Positions 9,756 through 55,019 of a DNA stretch of 64,000 bases are shown piece by piece. Under the pieces are notes generated by a model. It was not told the origin of the DNA and searched no databases. It saw only the letters and a program-made list of their open reading frames with translations. The stretch spans positions 1 through 64,000 of the forward strand of contig MPPA01000052.1 in assembly GCA_001896725.1 (NCBI GenBank). The letters run 5' to 3'. A program made the position numbers and the translations under genes. The stretch comes from Methanococcoides sp. EBM-47 (GTDB lineage Archaea; Halobacteriota; Methanosarcinia; Methanosarcinales; Methanosarcinaceae). Numbering within the stretch: position 1 is the stretch's first letter; the number at the start of each line of letters is the position of its first letter.

Positions 9756-10322
9756 ATGGAAATTGAAAAGCTTTTAAGGGATAGCTGGGGGATATTCCAG
9801 AAGAACATCGTTGCGTTTATTATCGGTACACTTATAGCAATAATAGGATCAATACTTATTGTGACCATTGCACCGTTGTTCTACGGTGTCACATACATGG
9901 CAGCAAAGGCTATTAGAGGGGAAACTGTGGAAATAGGCGATGTCTTTGCAGGGTTCAAAGTGCCCGGAGCCTTTGTGCAGAGCTGGGTGGTCGGCATCAT
10001 ATATCTGGCACTGATGGTCGCAGGTTCCATGTTGCTGGGAAGGGTAGGAGGTATTGTTGGGATACTGATGATCTATGCTTTGCCGCTTCTGGTCATAAAA
10101 GGATACAAAGGAGCAGATGCTCTCAGGGAGAACTTTGAGCTGATACAGAAATACCCCACGGACACTGTTATCGTATTCCTTGTGTTCTTCGCGCTCAACC
10201 TCATCGGCAGCCTTATAATGATCGGGGCGCTCATCACGATCCCGCTTAGTCAGATAGGCTATACCCTTACGGCAAAGAACCTGGCGGACAGCGGTCAGCC
10301 AGTGGCCTATATAGAGGGATGA
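9756..10322 (+). CDS. Integral membrane protein, tandem paralogue 1
   Basis: A 188-residue membrane protein of unknown function. Four to five hydrophobic segments are visible (about 18-45, 72-92, 95-115, 138-165). It is paralogous to the next gene: both start MEIExLLxxxWxIFQK, continue with IIGxLIxIxGSI, and share the VFAGFK motif near residue 70. The architecture resembles membrane proteins of the DUF975/DUF4013 kind with a polar N-terminal amphipathic helix. GGAGGT lies 8 nt before the ATG and TATATATA near 9692-9700 is the likely promoter. A hairpin terminator follows, so the two copies are probably separate transcripts. Confidence 0.75.
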   Translation: MEIEKLLRDSWGIFQKNIVAFIIGTLIAIIGSILIVTIAPLFYGVTYMAAKAIRGETVEIGDVFAGFKVPGAFVQSWVVGIIYLALMVAGSMLLGRVGGIVGILMIYALPLLVIKGYKGADALRENFELIQKYPTDTVIVFLVFFALNLIGSLIMIGALITIPLSQIGYTLTAKNLADSGQPVAYIEG

Positions 10323-10333
10323 GACAGATCACG

Positions 10334-10363
10334 GCCTAAACAAGGCATTTTTATTTTTTTTGG
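10334..10363 (+). terminator. Terminator after membrane paralogue 1
   Basis: GCCT (10334-10337) pairs with AGGC (10343-10346) around AAACA, followed by ATTTTTATTTTTTTT. The short stem is backed by a long T-run, typical for archaeal termination. Confidence 0.55.
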
Positions 10364-10430
10364 GATAAGTATATATATCATATAATAATATTTATTTAAA
10401 GTAATATATTTATTCACAGGAGGCAACAAT

Positions 10431-11021
10431 ATGGAGATAGAAACTCTCTTAAAGAACACCTGGAACATTTTCCAGAAGGATCTGGTCACGTACATCATCG
10501 GTGCGCTTATAACGATCTTCGGATCGATCATCCTGATAACATCTGCCCCATTGGCCTATGGTCTTGCCCACATGGCTGCAAAGGGAACAAGAGGAGAAAA
10601 AATAGAGGTAACTGATGTCTTCGCAGGGTTCAAGCTCGATAAGTTCATACAGAGCTGGCTACTGTTCCTGATAATTATGATACCCATATTTATAGGGTTC
10701 CTGCTCCTGGTCATTCCGGGAATTATAATCAGCATAGCCTTTGCGATCATTTTCCTCTATGCACTGCCCTTGATGGTGGTCAATGGCACCGGTGCAGTGG
10801 ACTCCCTGAAGGAGAGCTTGGAAATGGCAAAGACCAATCCCCAGGACACAATTATACTGGTAGTACTGGTCATGGTCCTCAATGCCATCGGCAGCGCAAT
10901 ATGGATAGGGACCATCCTCACGATGCCCTTTACAATGCTGATGCTTATCCTTGCACTCCCCATGGTAACAGGCGCAAAGCCTGAAATGAATGTGCAGGAT
11001 GCTACCGTATCAGAGGTCTGA
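10431..11021 (+). CDS. Integral membrane protein, tandem paralogue 2
   Basis: A 196-residue paralogue of the preceding gene, with the same N-terminal MEIETLLKNTWNIFQK, the GALITIFGSII segment, DVFAGFK near residue 65 and hydrophobic segments at about 18-45, 75-112, 138-160 and 165-180. Function unknown. It carries its own upstream A+T-rich promoter region and AGGAGG about 8 nt before the ATG, and ends in a strong terminator. The two copies have diverged clearly in the middle and C-terminal parts, so the duplication is not recent. Confidence 0.75.
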   Translation: MEIETLLKNTWNIFQKDLVTYIIGALITIFGSIILITSAPLAYGLAHMAAKGTRGEKIEVTDVFAGFKLDKFIQSWLLFLIIMIPIFIGFLLLVIPGIIISIAFAIIFLYALPLMVVNGTGAVDSLKESLEMAKTNPQDTIILVVLVMVLNAIGSAIWIGTILTMPFTMLMLILALPMVTGAKPEMNVQDATVSEV

Positions 11022-11164: not shown

Positions 11165-13648
11165 TCAGATATTATATATCTCAGAGCTCTTTCTTACTTT
11201 TTCAATATCCCTGTCGATAACCGACAGTTTATTCTTGTCCACTTTGATCCCTGCAAGGTTCTCAATGAACCAGATAGATTTCACATGGTCGTCCGGGGTA
11301 AGTTTCCAGTCAGGTTTCTCCATGTAGAAATCGATGCCTTCGGCGTATCTCATAAGCTCCATACGCACTTCCTCTGTGATCCAGCCCAGTTCCTCATAGT
11401 AAGAGAGAATATCAGGAAGATTGTTCCTCCCCACAAGCTCCATAAGGAACTCAAGCCATTCCATACACAGCTTGACGCTGGAGGAATTTTTCATGATATG
11501 TGCAAGCTGTATGCTCTGACCAGGTCTGCCCCTGGCACCGATCCTTTTAAGCTCCCCCTCCACATATCCTGACAGCTCGGTCATTTCATCCCTTATCCCT
11601 TGCTGTGCAGCCGAAACGCTTGAAACTTCGGTCCCAAGCTTTAGAACGTTGCCTTTCATATCCTGCATGGCTGTAGACATTTCCGCACCTGACCTCTCCA
11701 TACCCATGAGTCGTGGCACGAGTTCCTCCATTGCATCAGCCTTAGCTGACAAAACAGAGAAACGGTCATCATTTTCCTGCGCATTTTCCTGCATCTTGGA
11801 AACAAGGGCCGTATAGGACCCCACAAGTTCTGAAATATGCTTCTCTATACTGGAAAGGCTTGACAGGATATCCTTGTTCTCGGACAGGACATGGGCCACC
11901 TGTTGTTCCATACCCGACAGATGTGATTCCAGCCGGACCATGCGCTCATCCAGATCATCGAATTTCATACCCGTAGCCTTCATTACATCATCAGAAGAAC
12001 TTTGCAAAGACTTCACAGAGTCACCAAGAACGGTCACATTCCCTGAAAGTTCCTCATACATACCATACATCTGGGAGATGTTCCCTGCAGATAATTCCAG
12101 CTTCTCTCTAAGATCATCAAGTTCTCCGGACACGATCGGAGCAGACCCCTGAGAATCCCTGGTACTTGCAGGAGAAGATACCCCTTCATCTGTTTTCCCA
12201 TGCCGGGAAAGAGTGTCGGATGAGCTCTGTTTTGGATCTGCACCAGCTCCTGATAGATCACTGTGAACAGGAAAATGTGCCCGGGGTTCATTATCGATCT
12301 TAAGCTCTTGCGGAAAATCGAACAAAGGATTCTCCACCGGGGTCACCTTTACAAAATCACCCGCAGAAATGCTACTATCATGAACATCTGACAGACCAAC
12401 CTGTTCAGATCGTGGAGAGGGCACCGACAGGCCAGCAGCATCTTTGGAAGGTGAAAAAGGCGATGTGTCTGAAAGTACCCGATCAAAGGGTGAAGAGGTA
12501 GAAGCGATCGATGATGTATTGTCCCTTGCCTGCATCCGGCTGTCATATACCGGATCATCAGGCAACTGAAAAGGATCATCCTCTTCGCGAACATTACCTT
12601 CCTTTATTTTCTCCATTTTTTCCAGCAAACTTTTGCCTTTAGTAAGGCTTCTGACGTTAGCAAATATAGAATTTGCCAGCTCGCTTATGCTCGTTGCCAG
12701 GTTGCCGGAAACACCGGTCACCCTTTCACCGATACCAGTTTTTTTCTCTGATGCTGTGGGCACATGTCCGGGGGTAAAGCCATCTGGGAACGGAGGATTC
12801 TGTCCGAAGAACGGAAAAGGAGGGGAACCTGATGGAACGGTCTGACCTGCAAATGGATCAGAGGCTGGTGAGGAGGCGCCCTGAGCAAAAGGATCACGGG
12901 AGACAGCAGATGAACTCTGCGACAGACCGGGCTCTGCAACAGGAGGAACGAAGGCTGAGGAAGTTCCGGGGAAAGGATGGTCCGAAGACCTAGACGTCTG
13001 AAGAGGTGGGACCATAGCATCAAAAGCAGGGAACTGCTGAGGAGAAGATGAAATATTTCCATCAGGCACCGGAAAAACCGGTGAGTTGAACGAACTGGGA
13101 CCATTTATGTTAGGACCCTGAGCAAAAAGCTTTGAAGGATCTGGTGAACTGATCCCCTGCTTTTCATGGGATTGCACTGAACTGCTGCCATTGGGAACAT
13201 CATCATGTAATGCCAGTTCAAAAAGAGGAGGTTTTTTATTCCTGGTGACCTGTGCTTTTGACAGTTCCTGTGCTCCTCTTGCAGGAGCCGCTGTGGACCC
13301 CATTGATGGGTCCTGAGATAACAAAGGAGTTAAAGGTCCTTGCCCCATATCCTTTGTAAAAGGGGTAGTTGAGACACTTGCGAGTTCCTGATCCGGTTGA
13401 AGAGAACTGATATCAGGCAATTCCATCGAGAACAACGGTGCAGATGGCTCGGAAAGAGATGAAGATGAGCTCTTTTCAGACACATCGATATCTTCCTCTT
13501 GTATGGCTGAATCCGAAAAAGCTTTCTGGAAAAGATCTGGTACCTGAGCACCAAGAGCGAAGGGTGGTGGACCTGATACAGTATCTGCATCAGTATCCTG
13601 CTCTTCTTCCTTCTTCTGGTCTGCCGTTTCCCATGGAAATTTGCTCAT
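11165..13648 (-). CDS. Orphan FlaD/FlaE-domain protein with a very long disordered N-terminus
   Basis: An 827-residue protein. Residues 1-490 are rich in Ser, Pro, Phe and Gly with repeated short motifs (SSPF, DPFAQG, FAQGPN) and look disordered. Residues about 510-690 are heptad-like and should form a coiled coil. Residues about 705-820 are a FlaD/FlaE (ArlD/E) domain: LCMEWLEFLMELVGRNNL, LGWITEEVR, YAEGIDFYMEKPDWKL and DDHVKSIWFIENLAG align with the same region of the operon-encoded protein at 53730-55019. ArlC/D/E proteins link the archaellum motor to CheF and the chemotaxis system. This copy stands alone, 35 kb from the archaellum operon, and is far longer than usual. Confidence 0.8.
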   Translation of the reverse strand: MSKFPWETADQKKEEEQDTDADTVSGPPPFALGAQVPDLFQKAFSDSAIQEEDIDVSEKSSSSSLSEPSAPLFSMELPDISSLQPDQELASVSTTPFTKDMGQGPLTPLLSQDPSMGSTAAPARGAQELSKAQVTRNKKPPLFELALHDDVPNGSSSVQSHEKQGISSPDPSKLFAQGPNINGPSSFNSPVFPVPDGNISSSPQQFPAFDAMVPPLQTSRSSDHPFPGTSSAFVPPVAEPGLSQSSSAVSRDPFAQGASSPASDPFAGQTVPSGSPPFPFFGQNPPFPDGFTPGHVPTASEKKTGIGERVTGVSGNLATSISELANSIFANVRSLTKGKSLLEKMEKIKEGNVREEDDPFQLPDDPVYDSRMQARDNTSSIASTSSPFDRVLSDTSPFSPSKDAAGLSVPSPRSEQVGLSDVHDSSISAGDFVKVTPVENPLFDFPQELKIDNEPRAHFPVHSDLSGAGADPKQSSSDTLSRHGKTDEGVSSPASTRDSQGSAPIVSGELDDLREKLELSAGNISQMYGMYEELSGNVTVLGDSVKSLQSSSDDVMKATGMKFDDLDERMVRLESHLSGMEQQVAHVLSENKDILSSLSSIEKHISELVGSYTALVSKMQENAQENDDRFSVLSAKADAMEELVPRLMGMERSGAEMSTAMQDMKGNVLKLGTEVSSVSAAQQGIRDEMTELSGYVEGELKRIGARGRPGQSIQLAHIMKNSSSVKLCMEWLEFLMELVGRNNLPDILSYYEELGWITEEVRMELMRYAEGIDFYMEKPDWKLTPDDHVKSIWFIENLAGIKVDKNKLSVIDRDIEKVRKSSEIYNI

Positions 13649-14050
13649 AGAGTCTCAACTTCAGATGTTTAGGTTTGAATTAACTAATATAAATTATACA
13701 TGTATTTATATAAAACTTATTGATTAACCTCATCTGAATTAAAAAACAGAATGATGATCAGAACAGGATGGTCAAAAGAAGGCGCACATGAAATTTGAGG
13801 GAATGGACGAGAGATAAAGGATGAAATTTGTGCTAGAAATTCATGTTGTTGTTACTCTGTGCGCCTATAATGTGCATACGTTATCAAAATATATAAGGAT
13901 TTTGCATTTGTCCAAAGTAAATGAAGCGTAATAGGGCATTGAATTTGATTATCATCATAATGATGATTATGTGTGTAGTGTGCAAATATATACTGCATAA
14001 AGATAAAAACTAAGTGAAGGCGTTCAAAGAGACATCAAGAAAGGCACTGA
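13649..14050. other. Promoter region of the orphan FlaD gene and unexplained 3' region of thiI
   Basis: A TATA-like TTTATATAAA at 13706-13715 is the likely minus-strand promoter of the orphan FlaD gene (about 60 nt before its ATG). GGCGCAC at 13781-13787 is repeated inverted as GTGCGCC at 13859-13865 with a 71-nt spacer. A 36-codon plus-strand frame from ATG 13821 has no clear support. No RNA gene was recognised. Confidence 0.4.
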
Positions 14051-48645: not shown

Positions 48646-50298
48646 TCAACCCATGCCCAAAAGCGACCATATGGATGCCTTTGTGACCACAGCAGTAATG
48701 CCAGATATCCAGACCATTATCACAAAATCGATGGTGGCGCTAAGGAAATGACCCCCGTCCACAACTCTGATCAGAAGTGCAGACATCAGAGAATGTACTA
48801 TCATAATGAGCAGCACCATCAATGATAATACCTCTACGTCCCCTACATTGGTATAGATCACCATGCCCATGGACATCCCTGCGGGCATTTCCACACTGGC
48901 GAACATACTCTGCATCATGTCGATCACACCAACAGAAATGTACATCGTAAAACCAATTCCGGCAGTAAGACCGTAAAATACCCCTACAAGGCTTGACGCA
49001 GATTGGACCCTCTTTTTTCTTAAAGTCACTATCCTGTGGAAATTAGTAGCTATGATATCACCTATGATCTCGGGCTTACCTCCAAGATTAGTTGATTCAA
49101 CGAACATAACACAGAACCTTTGAATAAGATGACTGCCCGTATTTGCGGAAAAGAACTCCCATGATTTGAACTTGTCGATCCTGGTGTTAAGTCTCTTGTA
49201 CAGTTCGTTCACATCTTTGGTAAGAGGACCAAAGTCATGTATACGCAATGCTTTCAACGCTTCATCTATCACCCCACCCCTTGCACCTGCCGAACTTCCA
49301 AGAGACCTGATAAAAGCAGGAAAATTCTCATCTCTGCGCCTGATATTTTTCTCTATCTTACGACATACTTTTCCAGTGTAGATAAGAGGGGTAAAGCAAA
49401 GTGCAATAGCAATGGGTGTGACGATCTTTCCATAAAGCATAACAATAATGGTAACAAGAACACATGCTCCAATGGAAATGGGGATAGAGCGATATAATTT
49501 TAGCTTATAGTCAGGGATTATGTGGGATTTGCTCCACAGAGGGTCTTTTGGCACCTTACCTTTTGTGAACAGAAGCATCACAAGATCCGTAATTATGAAC
49601 GTCACCACCACCATTGCCATGAGAAACACTGCATCCATACCCGTTATCACTGGCATGATTACAGCGAACGATGCAAGGAATATGAGGGACATTACCAAAG
49701 AAACGAACAACTCCTTGATGATCTCAATATTATACATTGCACTGTTGTACATGGCTTCATATTCGTTCATGACAACATTCTGCTCCGAAAAAAGGAACGT
49801 TTTTATATTTTCTCCAGACTGTAGCCCATGAGCGAACCTGTCCAGAAAGTCCTCGAATATAACAGATGGTGTTCTCTTTGAAATGAACCTGCATGCTTCA
49901 GCAAGGCTCATATTCCATACAGTGACAAGATCATAGATCTTTTTTGTTTCAGCGGCTAACTCCTTATATTCCCGATTATCGGAAACTATCCTAACGATAT
50001 CAAGCCGTGGCGTTTCAGCAGTGGCAACGGAGCCCATTTGAGTTATATAGTAATGCATGTTGTTATCAATGCGGGATGCCTGCCCTCCATAGATGGAAAG
50101 CGGATAATATACTGCAAAAAGAATACAGATCACAGGTATCATGATGGGAATAACCCTGGCACTTCCCTCAAATAAAGTAGGTAGTGCGGCATAAAGTAAA
50201 AAGGAGAAGATAAAACCAAATGTAATGACGGGGATGGCGATCTTTTTCATGTAAGCTGCCGGTTCCACACCCATACAATGGAATGCCTTACTATACAT
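48646..50298 (-). CDS. flaJ: Archaellum membrane assembly protein FlaJ/ArlJ
   Basis: A 550-residue polytopic platform protein of the archaellum, a T2SSF/TadC-type membrane component. Seen: hydrophobic segments near residues 18-60, the two cytoplasmic domains with the ITQMGSVATAETPRLDIVR and IRSLGSSAGARGGVIDEALKA patterns, and further membrane segments at about 235-290, 300-340, 450-480 and 490-545. It anchors the ATPase FlaI. ATG 50298 is used because AAGGTG lies 8 nt upstream, 12 nt after the flaI stop. Last gene of the operon. Confidence 0.93.
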   Translation of the reverse strand: MYSKAFHCMGVEPAAYMKKIAIPVITFGFIFSFLLYAALPTLFEGSARVIPIMIPVICILFAVYYPLSIYGGQASRIDNNMHYYITQMGSVATAETPRLDIVRIVSDNREYKELAAETKKIYDLVTVWNMSLAEACRFISKRTPSVIFEDFLDRFAHGLQSGENIKTFLFSEQNVVMNEYEAMYNSAMYNIEIIKELFVSLVMSLIFLASFAVIMPVITGMDAVFLMAMVVVTFIITDLVMLLFTKGKVPKDPLWSKSHIIPDYKLKLYRSIPISIGACVLVTIIVMLYGKIVTPIAIALCFTPLIYTGKVCRKIEKNIRRRDENFPAFIRSLGSSAGARGGVIDEALKALRIHDFGPLTKDVNELYKRLNTRIDKFKSWEFFSANTGSHLIQRFCVMFVESTNLGGKPEIIGDIIATNFHRIVTLRKKRVQSASSLVGVFYGLTAGIGFTMYISVGVIDMMQSMFASVEMPAGMSMGMVIYTNVGDVEVLSLMVLLIMIVHSLMSALLIRVVDGGHFLSATIDFVIMVWISGITAVVTKASIWSLLGMG

Positions 50299-50309
50299 AA
50301 AATACACCT

Positions 50310-51968
50310 TTATACTGAGAATGGTAAGCCTTCAACACCATGTTTGTAGAAGTTGACTATGACTTCCAGCACCTCATAATATTCCTCTATGCCCCTTGAG
50401 CTCATTTCATTTAATATCCTGGCACGGAGTAACAGGTCCTGATAGATCTTACGTTTATCATCATAACCTAATTTTGTAGCGATCTTGTTTTCAAGAATGT
50501 AACTATTGTTAAGGCCGCGAAAAATATGTTTATCAGTTTCAGGGTCCCATTGGAAAACAGCTCTTGTGACCACACCACCTGCTTCTTCATAATACCCTTC
50601 GATCTCCTCTATAGCAAGGCACCTCCTGAGAAACTTACCTTTCCTGTACACTGCAGAAAGGATCATGGCAATGTTCAGGTTATCGATGAAGGTCACAGGC
50701 ACGTTGATAGGGTCTCCAGTAAGACGCTGTATCATTTTGGTAACTGCTGATGCGTGGAAAGTTGCCATTACTGGATGACCGGTCTGCATGCCCTGAAAAG
50801 CTACTGATCCTTCCACGCCTCGTATCTCACCTACGATGATATAGTTAGGTCTTGAACGTAACGCAGCTTTCAGCAGTACGAAAGTATCTACCCTTGAATC
50901 CACAGGTCCATCTTCACGTGTGATCAGCTGCTGCCATACAGGTTGTGGGGGCTGCACTTCTGCTGTGTCCTCTGCAGTGTATATTTTGGATTTTGGATTA
51001 ACAAAGCATAGACATGCATTCAACATTGTGGTCTTACCGCTTGCTGTTTCCCCACTGAAGAAAACACTCTGACCGTTCTCCAGGCTGATCCACATATAAG
51101 CTGCCATCTCAGCGCTGAGGGCTCCCCATTTGATAAGCTGTACTATGCTCACTGGGACCTCCATGAACTTACGCATTGTGAAACTGCTACCTCTGCGGCT
51201 GATATCTGGACTATATATTATGTTGATACGTGAACCGTCAGGCAAAGCACCGTCTGCTATCGGGCGGGCATCACTTACAGGACGGCCTATCCGCTCACTC
51301 ATACTGCGCAACCAGTTATCAAGCCCAACATCATCCCCAAAGGTAATATCTGTCTGAAGCATTCCGAATATCTTATGGACTATGTAAACGCCACTTACAC
51401 CTATGCTGTGGATATCCTCAAGATAGGGGTCCCTGATAATAGGTTCTATGGGACCTGAGCCAATGATGTTCCTTTCTATGTAGTACAGAATCTTATTGTA
51501 TTCCTGCTGGTTCACCGGAACTTTTTTCTTCACAGGAATAAGCTTTTGGATGAAACCTACTCCTTTTGTATCTTCTTCGATATCACCTCCTGCACCCACA
51601 ACAACTGAACTGTCCAATAGCTTAGTGATCAGTTCCTTTAGCTCTGCCTCTGATTGTGGTACGGGCTCCTTTGCAGATTTTTCCAGAATAAGGTCCATTA
51701 CAGTGTCATATTTCTTCTTTTCCTTCTCCGACAGGCTAGGCTCAATGGTATAGTATTTGATCTCACCCATTTCAGGAGTACCATAGATATGAATGAAGAT
51801 AGGGTCCCCCACGGGAAGTATGACATTGACATTATCACTTTCGAGGTCCTTTGATAAACTTACAAGGAATTGGGGTTCTACATCTGAATCTTTTTCTTTC
51901 TTGAATCTTTCTATATACTCACCAAGATGAGGATTTCTTTGTATGGCTTTCTGGAAATCAGCATCCAT
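50310..51968 (-). CDS. flaI: Archaellum motor ATPase FlaI/ArlI
   Basis: A 552-residue hexameric secretion/rotation ATPase of the PilT/GspE superfamily, used for both assembly and rotation. Seen: an N-terminal domain of about 250 residues, Walker A FSGETASGKTTMLN near residue 310, the Asp box EDTAEVQ, Walker B YIIVGEIRGVEG and the His box MQTGHPVMATFH. AGGAGG sits directly before the ATG. It follows flaH by 17 nt and precedes flaJ by 11 nt, the conserved archaellum order. Confidence 0.96.
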   Translation of the reverse strand: MDADFQKAIQRNPHLGEYIERFKKEKDSDVEPQFLVSLSKDLESDNVNVILPVGDPIFIHIYGTPEMGEIKYYTIEPSLSEKEKKKYDTVMDLILEKSAKEPVPQSEAELKELITKLLDSSVVVGAGGDIEEDTKGVGFIQKLIPVKKKVPVNQQEYNKILYYIERNIIGSGPIEPIIRDPYLEDIHSIGVSGVYIVHKIFGMLQTDITFGDDVGLDNWLRSMSERIGRPVSDARPIADGALPDGSRINIIYSPDISRRGSSFTMRKFMEVPVSIVQLIKWGALSAEMAAYMWISLENGQSVFFSGETASGKTTMLNACLCFVNPKSKIYTAEDTAEVQPPQPVWQQLITREDGPVDSRVDTFVLLKAALRSRPNYIIVGEIRGVEGSVAFQGMQTGHPVMATFHASAVTKMIQRLTGDPINVPVTFIDNLNIAMILSAVYRKGKFLRRCLAIEEIEGYYEEAGGVVTRAVFQWDPETDKHIFRGLNNSYILENKIATKLGYDDKRKIYQDLLLRARILNEMSSRGIEEYYEVLEVIVNFYKHGVEGLPFSV

Positions 51969-51985
51969 TCATATAACCTCCTGTA

Positions 51986-52687
51986 TCATGAAACAGAAGC
52001 AATCTCCACTACCAGGCCAACTTTGGGTTCGATCCTGAAGCCTATCATCTGTCCTACAGGTCCCTTAGCACCAGTGAACTTATTTACAACCACGGTCCTT
52101 TTGACCTCATTGGCCATAGGCCTGGACTTCAGCGTAATGTATATATCACAACTTGATCTGAACATAGAAGTAATTTCTTCACTAAGCTGGCTGGGTTCTA
52201 TTGTCAGGATTATCACTTTGCCAATACCATTGAGCTTCTTGAAGAAGGAGATGAGTTCCAGACTTTTTTCAATGTTTGCACTGTATTTGATAAGGGAGGA
52301 TATGGTATCTATTATTATCACATCTTTATCGAAAAGTTCTTCTGCGCTCATCAGTCTTTCAACAAAGTCCAGACGAGATTTTGCAGCCTGAACAAGAGGG
52401 ATAACAGGTATATAAAGCAAAGTACCATTCAGAAGATAAGGAGCAATGGGATAGTCAAGAGAATACATCTGATTTATAAACCCCTTGGTAGTAAGCTGTG
52501 TAGAGACCAAAGTCACACTTATCTTGTTCTCTATGAACCCATATGTCAGACGTTGGGTAATGGTACTTTTTCCCCCACCACTGCCACCTTCTATTACTAC
52601 AAAGGAACCAGATGGAAAACCTCCACCCAATTTATCATTAAACTCATCCCTGGAAATGCTAAAAGGATAAATGTCTGCCAAATACAT
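51986..52687 (-). CDS. flaH: Archaellum ATP-binding protein FlaH/ArlH
   Basis: A 233-residue RecA/KaiC-like protein that binds ATP and controls the archaellum motor as a ring under FlaI. Seen: Walker A IEGGSGGGKSTITQRL near residue 32 and Walker B DVIIIDTISSLI near residue 110. Start uncertain: GAGG lies directly against ATG 52687, while a TTG 6 nt further in (52681, giving (M)ADIYPFS) has the better 7-nt spacing. It lies 9 nt after the flaG stop. Confidence 0.94.
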   Translation of the reverse strand: MYLADIYPFSISRDEFNDKLGGGFPSGSFVVIEGGSGGGKSTITQRLTYGFIENKISVTLVSTQLTTKGFINQMYSLDYPIAPYLLNGTLLYIPVIPLVQAAKSRLDFVERLMSAEELFDKDVIIIDTISSLIKYSANIEKSLELISFFKKLNGIGKVIILTIEPSQLSEEITSMFRSSCDIYITLKSRPMANEVKRTVVVNKFTGAKGPVGQMIGFRIEPKVGLVVEIASVS

Positions 52688-52696
52688 ACCTCACAT

Positions 52697-53224
52697 TCAT
52701 GTTATAAAGCTCATCGACCCGGACTTTCCATTCTCAGCAGTGATCTGGACACGATGATCACCATGGCTGAGAGCTGATGACATTGTTACGTTGACGACCA
52801 GCACATCTCCCGGACGCCATACCACATCCCCGTCCATTACACTGCTTTGCATATCAGAAGGCTCTATGAGCATCCCATCTACAAGGACGGTGATAAACTC
52901 AGTATTAAGTTCAGAAGCCCCTGTATTCTTTGCATAGAAAGTATAGCGTTTCTCATAACTGTCATAAGGTATTATCTCAGGGTCATTTATTATCGTAATA
53001 TCTGTACGGATCTGATCGGATAGAACTTTACCTCCTAGATAAGTGGCTCCTGTAAGTGACTGGACATTTACCGAAAGCACAGCAACAACACCAATTGCTA
53101 TGATAACAGCTGCTATGAAGAATATCATATGGGTAATAGCAGTTTCACCTGTCCTGTCTGCAAAGAACTTATTGAATTGTCCTGTACTGAACACTGTTCT
53201 ATCAACCTCTGGATGATCAAACAT
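52697..53224 (-). CDS. flaG: Archaellum stator protein FlaG/ArlG
   Basis: A 175-residue monotopic membrane protein; ArlG with ArlF forms the pseudoperiplasmic stator that holds the motor to the S-layer. Seen: TGETAITHMIFFIAAVIIAIGVVAV, the typical FlaG helix (residues about 28-52), followed by an immunoglobulin-like beta domain. The N-terminal 27 polar residues are longer than in most FlaG. No clear Shine-Dalgarno precedes ATG 53224 and an 81-nt A+T-rich gap separates it from flaF, so an internal promoter is possible. Confidence 0.9.
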   Translation of the reverse strand: MFDHPEVDRTVFSTGQFNKFFADRTGETAITHMIFFIAAVIIAIGVVAVLSVNVQSLTGATYLGGKVLSDQIRTDITIINDPEIIPYDSYEKRYTFYAKNTGASELNTEFITVLVDGMLIEPSDMQSSVMDGDVVWRPGDVLVVNVTMSSALSHGDHRVQITAENGKSGSMSFIT

Positions 53225-53305
53225 ATAGTAAAATAATACAACAGAAATATATTATTGATATAATTAATATAATTATTAGTATATATTGATTCCTAGAACA
53301 TTTGC

Positions 53306-53740
53306 TTAAATACTATAAGAATAATAATCGCAAATACCATTCTCAGTAACTACTTTTAGCCTATGGTCACCAAAGCCTGAGAGATCATAGATGGTCAAGA
53401 AAATTGTGGTTTGCGGATTCCATATTGAAGTAGTATTGGATGTGATCGAATAAGGCTTATAGACACCATCAACAAGGACCCCTAACTTATCTGATCTCAA
53501 GGTTTCACTGCCTGTATTAATCATCTCCAGAGACAGTTGGTAGGTCGAATTATGAATAATGGCACTTGAACCAACGACCTGTACATCGGTATGCAATTTT
53601 CTATTGATTAGGGAATAATGTTCATCAGCAGAAGACGATAGCAAGTCATTAGAAGAACTTATAGTGGTATATGACATTGTGGCCATGACCAGTGCAGATA
53701 CAAAGAATATTGTCAATACGACAGATGTCTCAAAGCCCAT
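53306..53740 (-). CDS. flaF: Archaellum stator protein FlaF/ArlF
   Basis: A 144-residue membrane protein with an N-terminal helix (GFETSVVLTIFFVSALVMATMSY, given in parts, residues 2-24), the family beginning of FlaF, then a beta-sandwich domain that binds the S-layer and the archaellum filament. ATG 53740 is chosen because GGAGGAG lies 6 nt upstream; the upstream frame to 53758 precedes that site. It overlaps the 3' end of the flaD/E gene (stop 53730-53732) by about 11 nt. Partner of FlaG. Confidence 0.88.
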   Translation of the reverse strand: MGFETSVVLTIFFVSALVMATMSYTTISSSNDLLSSSADEHYSLINRKLHTDVQVVGSSAIIHNSTYQLSLEMINTGSETLRSDKLGVLVDGVYKPYSITSNTTSIWNPQTTIFLTIYDLSGFGDHRLKVVTENGICDYYSYSI

Positions 53741-55019
53741 ATAACTCCTCCAGTCCATGCTTCACCTTTGACATCTCCCGATCAACACTGCTTAGCATGT
53801 TCTTGTCTATCTTGCGCCCACATAACCTTTCTATAAAAAGCAAGGATTTAGTGTGGTCTTCCGGTAAAAGGCGCCATGTGGGTTTCTCTACATAATAATC
53901 GATCCCTCTTGCATAGGCCATTATATCAGATCGTACATTATCACTTATCCATCCGATGTCAACATAGTAGTCAAGGGCATCCATCAAATTGTTCCTTCCC
54001 ACTCTTTCCATAAGGAACTCTATCCAGTTGAGGAGAACAACAACACTGGTGGGATCCTTACGTAAGACATCCAGTCTTACCAGGGGATTCTTCCCCTGAA
54101 GCTTCTCCTGATCATTTGTATTTGACTCCCCTGGGAGAATATCTTGGGATATAGATGCAGAGACCTGATTTTTAAGCGTTTGTGCCTCATTCCTTTCTAT
54201 ATCCTCTACCCTGAGAGATATTTTACTAATAGTTTCTGAGAGCTCAATAATGTTATTGTCCACCTGGACATTTTTTTCACTTAGCTCTTTTGTCTGTTCA
54301 GAAATATTGTTAAGGCTCTCGTGCATCATAGCCATTGCATCAGCAAAAGCATCGAACTTCGTTTCCATATCCTTTATCTTTTCAATAACCGAGTCTGTAG
54401 CCCCCGATGAGCTCATGTGCTGCGAGAATGAATCTAGATCGTTCTTCAGCATCACAACAATATTGCCTAGTTCATTTATCCTTTTTTCAGTCTTATCGAA
54501 CCTTTCCAGTGTTGCCCTCCCTCCGGCATCATCACCTACAAAAGGGTTCACCTGATTAGAGACGATCTCGTACAAAGATAACAGTTCAAGGATATTCTTA
54601 TCCATCTTCGCCACTGTTTTACTTACTTCTTCATTCTCCTTCTGCACCATTGAGAGGCTAACTTCTGCTTTTGCAATTTTACCTTCTATTTCTTTTATTT
54701 TCTTATTATTAGCTTCCAATGCCGCAGCATCAACAGATGGTTTTTCTGCTGGGGTTTGCATGCCAGGAGGAAAAACACCAATTGGACCGGAATTACCAGC
54801 TTTTTGAGGAAATGGGATACCTGGAGGTATCCCTGGATAAGAGGTACCACCTTGAGAAGAAGGTAAACCTGCTGAAAGATCAGGTACCAGACCAAGGCCA
54901 GGGGGTGCATTGGAAAATGGGTCGGAGTTGCCACTGAATGGAGAATCGGCCAATTTATTCTTTCCTCCTTTTTTCAGAAGAGAAAATATGTTCTTGATCT
55001 GGTCGCTAAGCCCTGCCAT
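53730..55019 (-). CDS. flaD: Archaellum switch protein with FlaD/FlaE domain
   Basis: A 429-residue first gene of the archaellum operon. Residues 1-75 are Pro/Gly/Ser rich (SPFSGNSDPFSNAPPGLG); about 85-285 are heptad-like coiled coil; about 305-429 are the FlaD/FlaE domain (LLNWIEFLMERVGRNNLMDA, ARGIDYYVEKPTW, LLPEDHTKSLLFIE). In euryarchaea ArlC/D/E form the cytoplasmic ring that receives the CheY-CheF signal. A separate FlaC was not seen; the coiled coil may include it. AAAGG lies upstream of the ATG. Its C-terminal domain aligns with the orphan protein at 11165-13648. Confidence 0.92.
   Translation of the reverse strand: MAGLSDQIKNIFSLLKKGGKNKLADSPFSGNSDPFSNAPPGLGLVPDLSAGLPSSQGGTSYPGIPPGIPFPQKAGNSGPIGVFPPGMQTPAEKPSVDAAALEANNKKIKEIEGKIAKAEVSLSMVQKENEEVSKTVAKMDKNILELLSLYEIVSNQVNPFVGDDAGGRATLERFDKTEKRINELGNIVVMLKNDLDSFSQHMSSSGATDSVIEKIKDMETKFDAFADAMAMMHESLNNISEQTKELSEKNVQVDNNIIELSETISKISLRVEDIERNEAQTLKNQVSASISQDILPGESNTNDQEKLQGKNPLVRLDVLRKDPTSVVVLLNWIEFLMERVGRNNLMDALDYYVDIGWISDNVRSDIMAYARGIDYYVEKPTWRLLPEDHTKSLLFIERLCGRKIDKNMLSSVDREMSKVKHGLEELYGL

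Follow-up and report, generated by a model that had tools for sequence, protein, structure and literature searches.

The window (the whole stretch of 64,000 nucleotides from contig MPPA01000052.1 analyzed here) raises the question of what role is played by a second protein bearing a domain of the archaellum ring. The archaellum motor operon encodes one such protein (SHORT), and 35.0 kb away a solitary gene encodes another of almost twice the length (LONG). The original prediction took the latter for a giant FlaD/E-domain protein, and proposed that it could be an alternative switch adaptor, a polar scaffold or a link between sensing and another machine, perhaps with condensate-forming behaviour. 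The features that bear on this question are collected in Table 1.

Table 1. Features of LONG, its promoter region and neighbours, and the archaellum operon, in coordinates of the window.
Feature	Coordinates	Strand	Basis
LONG, 827-aa ArlD/E paralogue, solo gene	11165..13648	-	ORF with ATG start; PF04659 97.9 bits; own clade, support 100/99
ArlD/E (PF04659) domain of LONG, residues 711-800	11249..11518	-	Profile match
Continuous helix/coiled-coil rod of LONG, residues 509-703	11540..12124	-	AlphaFold2; rod length across orthologues
Degenerate FlaC-like stretch within the rod, residues 569-612	11813..11944	-	PF05377 below cut-off; profile alignment to the FlaC region of SHORT
Predicted disordered N-part of LONG, residues 1-506, with PF/DPF, PDLS-like and PPLFE-like short motifs	12131..13648	-	AlphaFold2 pLDDT <50; blocks of alignment A2; PF enrichment
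Short conserved helix inside the N-part, residues 315-349, LTKGKSLLEKMEKI	12602..12706	-	Predicted helix, pLDDT ~50-56; A2 block ...LTxGKSLIERME
FPWE motif of the LONG N-terminus, residues 4-7	13628..13639	-	PW[ED] conservation in LONG sequences
TATA-like box TTTTATATAAAT of the putative LONG promoter	13704..13715	-	Kept upstream of LONG in six Methanomethylovorans genomes
Two small DUF975/GPDPase_memb-like membrane proteins, convergent with LONG	9756..11021	+	Often near LONG in other genera too
SHORT, operon-encoded ArlC+D/E protein, 429 aa	53730..55019	-	PF05377 74.1 bits and PF04659 92.5 bits; 32% identity to LONG over 322 aa
Remaining archaellum motor operon: ArlF/G-like, ArlH, ArlI, ArlJ	48646..53758	-	PF01917 x2, PF06745, PF00437, PF00482

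The C-terminus of LONG is an ArlD/E domain, as predicted: its PF04659 match lies far above the cut-off of 21 bits, and the domain occupies residues ~722-819 of the AlphaFold2 model, for which a 23-sequence alignment served as input. In the same model, residues 509-703 form a single unbroken helix, with which a separate model of the C-terminal part agrees. A straight helix extends by 0.1485 nm per residue, and these 195 residues would measure ~29 nm if straight. Residues 1-506 are predicted to be disordered, bar the weak helix at ~315-349, so that the disordered region of some 490 residues and the long coiled coil of the original prediction are both recovered. Its description of the disordered region as rich in Ser, Pro and Phe held for serine (16.1% of residues 1-490) and proline (12.0%), and the dipeptide PF is over-represented (11 copies versus 3.45 expected, with 0 of 2000 shuffles as high), but "Phe-rich" was an overstatement because phenylalanine makes up only 5.9%. 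"Giant" is likewise relative, as orthologues range from 446 aa (in Methanohalophilus) to 1056 aa. The FlaC match (PF05377) scores 18 bits, below the cut-off of 27.8, and the NPFVGD signature, invariant in SHORT, is absent from LONG; this degeneration of the FlaC core counts against the reading proposed below. Searches of the PDB returned no relevant match with the single sequence of LONG and generic coiled coils only with its profile; Foldseek with the C-terminal model found no PDB match at E <= 0.001, which gives the putative ring-binding surface no structural confirmation.

SHORT is the first gene of the motor operon (48646-55019) and is followed there by two archaellin-fold genes (putatively ArlF/G, judging by gene order), a KaiC-like ArlH, a T2SSE-type ArlI and a T2SSF-type ArlJ. 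The genome (an assembly of 2.18 Mb, 99.97% complete) holds exactly two PF04659 copies, LONG and SHORT. The two proteins are homologous across the rod and the D/E domain, over which a profile comparison with hhalign gave E 4.9e-48 and covered SHORT residues 97-429. The linker of SHORT also bears SPF/DPF and PDLS motifs, so part of the N-part of LONG looks like an expansion of the existing motif set of the ring protein. As originally proposed, LONG is distinct from the operon protein and lies outside the operon; the operon of its relatives likewise encodes SHORT rather than a long protein in the place of FlaD, and among the loci read LONG was never found in the motor operon. The archaellum genes of this lineage are scattered: the same genome has its four archaellin genes on another contig (C51; L198:6768-11600), beside two genes with histone-deacetylase domains.

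A promoter of its own had also been predicted for LONG, and the conserved TATA-like box, 56-67 bp upstream of the ATG, points to an active one. The interval between LONG and the operon contains tRNA synthetase and ThiI genes, a surface-glycan island (ManC, NeuB, GT2 and others) and AglB, the island and AglB occupying positions 25242-46208. In Methanolobus and Methanomethylovorans, the distance from LONG to the operon is 31-64 kb, with both flanking the interval on the same strand; LONG stands alone in these genera, between ThiI and small membrane-protein genes. The DUF975/GPDPase_memb-like genes are linked to LONG by gene position.

To place LONG in its family, PF04659 was surveyed in 112 Methanosarcinaceae genomes. 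Most of those with an operon protein of ~370-490 aa also have a second protein, usually of 640-1060 aa. Of the 58 genomes whose archaellum is of the SHORT type, 56 carry LONG as well, a count in which LONG was assigned by length, neighbours and clade, and in about twenty cases by length alone. Carriers include Methanomethylovorans, Methanolobus, Methanococcoides, Methanohalophilus, Methanosalsum and further Methanosarcinaceae. LONG was not detected in two archaellated genomes (G003 and G111), the assemblies of which are fragmented (94% and 83% complete); two further apparent cases of an archaellum without LONG (G052 and G053) were rejected, as their LONG genes are cut by contig ends. The 112-genome search found no LONG in Methanosarcina, whose divergent archaella apparently do without it, which counts against a dedicated role in the ring. 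LONG sequences form one clade that sits beside a group made up of SHORT together with the ArlC-D/E proteins from other families of the order, and this position dates the duplication, on phylogenetic grounds, as at least as old as Methanosarcinaceae.

Two side observations concern Methanosalsum. A second cluster (L032:3528-12555, L033:8285-18326) brings together a divergent copy of LONG, another SHORT and proteins of the CARDB/BatD type; it includes an archaellin-like gene (checked in L032), and within the portion read no motor genes lie nearby. The ArlI of one genome (G073; L035:2738-6235) is 1165 aa long, and a weak Intein_splicing match (E 0.004) within its extra ~610 residues makes an intein in this archaellum ATPase probable.

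The fate of LONG where archaella have been lost is informative. All 13 Methanococcoides and Methanohalophilus genomes with an archaellum have an intact LONG, versus one of the six that lack an intact ArlJ (Fisher p 5e-4, a value that ignores shared ancestry). Among those six, it is a C-terminal or frameshifted relic in G022, G034, G036 and G038, undetectable in G031, and intact in the Methanohalophilus genome G037, which has neither ArlJ nor SHORT and counts against dedication to the archaellum. With this one exception, LONG follows the archaellum, both in its co-occurrence with the motor genes and in its decay.

Conservation within LONG is uneven. All orthologues measured have a rod region of 201-214 aa, and complete sequences have a D/E part of 118 residues. 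The length of the N-part, at 140-637 aa, is not conserved, in contrast to that of the rod and to the motif at the N-terminus. This motif, [FL]PW[ED]xKK (typically MSxxPWExKK), is present in almost every LONG, and its tryptophan is the only one outside the ArlD/E domain in the LONG of the window. PW[ED] falls within the first 70 residues of 32 of 39 LONG sequences versus 0.2 expected from shuffles, by which a chance origin was rejected. None of 22 SHORT sequences has it, and among 55 outgroup ArlD/E ORFs a PWE-type motif occurs anywhere in only one, where it is not N-terminal. Further conserved blocks of the N-part (alignment A2) are PD[IL][LF]xxAF, PDLS, PPLFE, NPF/DPF repeats, the helix LTxGKSLIERME and KVTPIENP.

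ArlCDE proteins form a cytosolic ring around ArlI and ArlH and bind ArlH and CheF (PMC8978795, PMC9126983). We propose, with a probability of about 0.6, that LONG is a paralogue that split off from the operon ArlC-D/E protein long ago and serves only the archaellum, where it joins or docks onto this ring and presents its tip to a partner. Specifically, the ArlD/E domain and the rod of ~200 aa would become part of, or dock to, the cytosolic (switch/C-) ring built from SHORT, the long disordered N-part would reach outward, and the [FL]PW[ED] tip would bind a partner and thereby anchor or recruit something to the motor. Homology, architecture, conservation, the co-occurrence and co-decay with the archaellum and the independence from CheA and CheF are computed results; membership in the ring and binding of a partner are inferred. 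LONG may connect the motor with a further cellular structure, as a possible scaffold or tether. The polar cap is a candidate partner, by inference. In Pyrococcus the ring sits in a gap of roughly 35 nm between membrane and polar cap (PMC5517150), and the ~29-nm rod is on the same scale, an agreement that is suggestive only. The more specific version, in which LONG links the ring to the polar cap or to a partner that organises the cap, with the ArlD/E domain in the ring, the rod setting a fixed spacing and the disordered arm acting as an elastic connection that docks through the PWE tip, is rather doubtful; if true, LONG would be a first molecular handle on the polar cap.

The simplest rival keeps LONG in the ring and asks nothing of its N-part: LONG would be a second subunit that supplies the other ArlD/E domain of a heteromeric ring, with the N-part a neutral entropic tail that ties nothing. 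Haloarchaea do have two ArlD/E proteins, their ArlCE and ArlD interact (PMC8978795), and the drift in the disordered length of LONG suits such a tail. However, an N-part without a function is hard to reconcile with its conserved tip, its enrichment in PF and its short conserved blocks, and several other families of the phylum have a single PF04659 protein. We regard this explanation as credible, if on the unlikely side.

A link to sensing was part of the original prediction, in the form of an adaptor that would replace CheF and couple CheY-P to the motor. The genome encodes CheB, CheA, three CheC-like proteins, CheR and CheD in one cluster (L208, contig C33), and despite this its best CheF match (E ~0.005-0.006) is below the cut-off; CheF is missing from nearly all carriers of LONG and exceeds the cut-off in few. 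Against this stand two genomes with CheF alongside LONG (G017 and G033) and nine near-complete genomes with LONG and an archaellum that have no CheA (G018, G020, G023, G024, G026, G032, G035, G055 and G110). LONG is therefore not confined to genomes with a CheA/CheY system and cannot depend on chemotaxis, to which it might add where present. Substitution for CheF is accordingly improbable, and the proposed connection with CheF and sensing found no support. The weak CheF match itself is a PH-like stretch of 45 residues in a 220-aa protein encoded downstream of the archaellins (L198:403-1062, contig C51), which may be a divergent or replacement adaptor.

The surroundings of LONG in other genera could imply a different machine. 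In Methanococcoides, Methanosalsum, a Methanohalobium-like genus (g9), Methanohalophilus and two further genera, LONG precedes or adjoins a series of pilin-like genes (DUF7287, DUF7288, DUF7261, DUF7266, DUF7289 and DUF7308), being a few bases upstream of DUF7287 in Methanococcoides and codirectional with the series in Methanosalsum, g9 and others. A partnership in which LONG is part of a type IV pilus-like machine formed by the DUF7287/7288/7261/7266/7289 genes was at first the apparent answer, and was rejected by the pattern of decay: the adjoining pilin-like operon is complete in all five genomes that lost LONG. Since LONG decays upon archaellum loss while this operon stays intact, its function tracks the archaellum and not the pilins, and it is not retained along with the pilus genes. 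Moreover, LONG is located elsewhere in Methanomethylovorans and Methanolobus, and the one DUF7288 locus in the genome of the window is divergent and lies on a different contig (G000:C44, L195:5873-9065). The odds are thus well against a pilus component, and the "other machine" of the original prediction is disfavoured. The pilin-like operons are widespread on their own account, with DUF7288 in 61 of the 112 family genomes and often two operon copies (e.g., L056:83-6386); a literature search on DUF7287-7289 found nothing. Finally, it is highly improbable that Ser/Pro/Phe-rich repeats would drive a polar condensate that concentrates motors, as the large disordered region with PF repeats might suggest, because this region differs greatly between orthologues in length, in number of PF and in F content, down to an N-part of 106-138 aa with 0-1 PF in Methanohalophilus.

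Among known systems, LONG is closest to the euryarchaeal ArlC/D/E proteins (FlaC/D/E; PF04659, PF05377), with which it shares the C-terminal ArlD/E domain preceded by a coiled-coil rod, homologous to that of the operon ArlC-D/E protein. Fused ArlDE and ArlCDE proteins are frequent, and archaellated genomes have one to three FlaC/D/E genes (PMC4858521), and there is thus nothing new in a second copy by itself. On the other hand, LONG differs from these proteins in being encoded outside the arl operon, alongside a complete operon ArlC-D/E protein, and in its degenerate FlaC part, long disordered N-part and PWE tip. What is new in LONG is the combination of a separate clade, a fixed rod, a variable disordered arm and a conserved tip. 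The presence of such a conserved, archaellum-dependent paralogue suggests that surveys based on the operon miss a subunit of the archaellum ring in Methanosarcinaceae. Haloarchaeal ArlCE proteins (up to 978 aa; G410, L201:4070-7003) are likewise long, combine a coil with an ArlD/E domain and partner a second ArlD/E protein; unlike LONG, they are encoded next to ArlI/ArlJ-like genes, carry a full FlaC domain (77.9 bits), belong to another clade and have no N-terminal PWE. Outside any archaellum locus, an MreB/Salactin-like actin gene has as its neighbour a gene from a separate family, whose giant coiled-coil products carry a PF04659-like domain at the N-terminus and reach 1943 aa among the complete ones; this arrangement occurs in three Methanosarcinaceae and in two genomes that belong to a different family of the order (L199:5642-12593, L200:230-3984, L080:1-3559, L082:1902-4905 and L081). 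The last comparison is with the euryarchaeal polar cap or motor-anchoring layer, in which the ArlCDE ring occupies the ~35-nm gap next to the cap (PMC5517150) and to which the rod and flexible tail of LONG are matched in scale. LONG would bear on the make-up of the polar cap and on the protein that links archaellum motors to the cell interior (PMC8978795, PMC5517150): conserved, dependent on the archaellum and built of a fixed rod with a single short putative docking motif, it provides a concrete bait for the partner.
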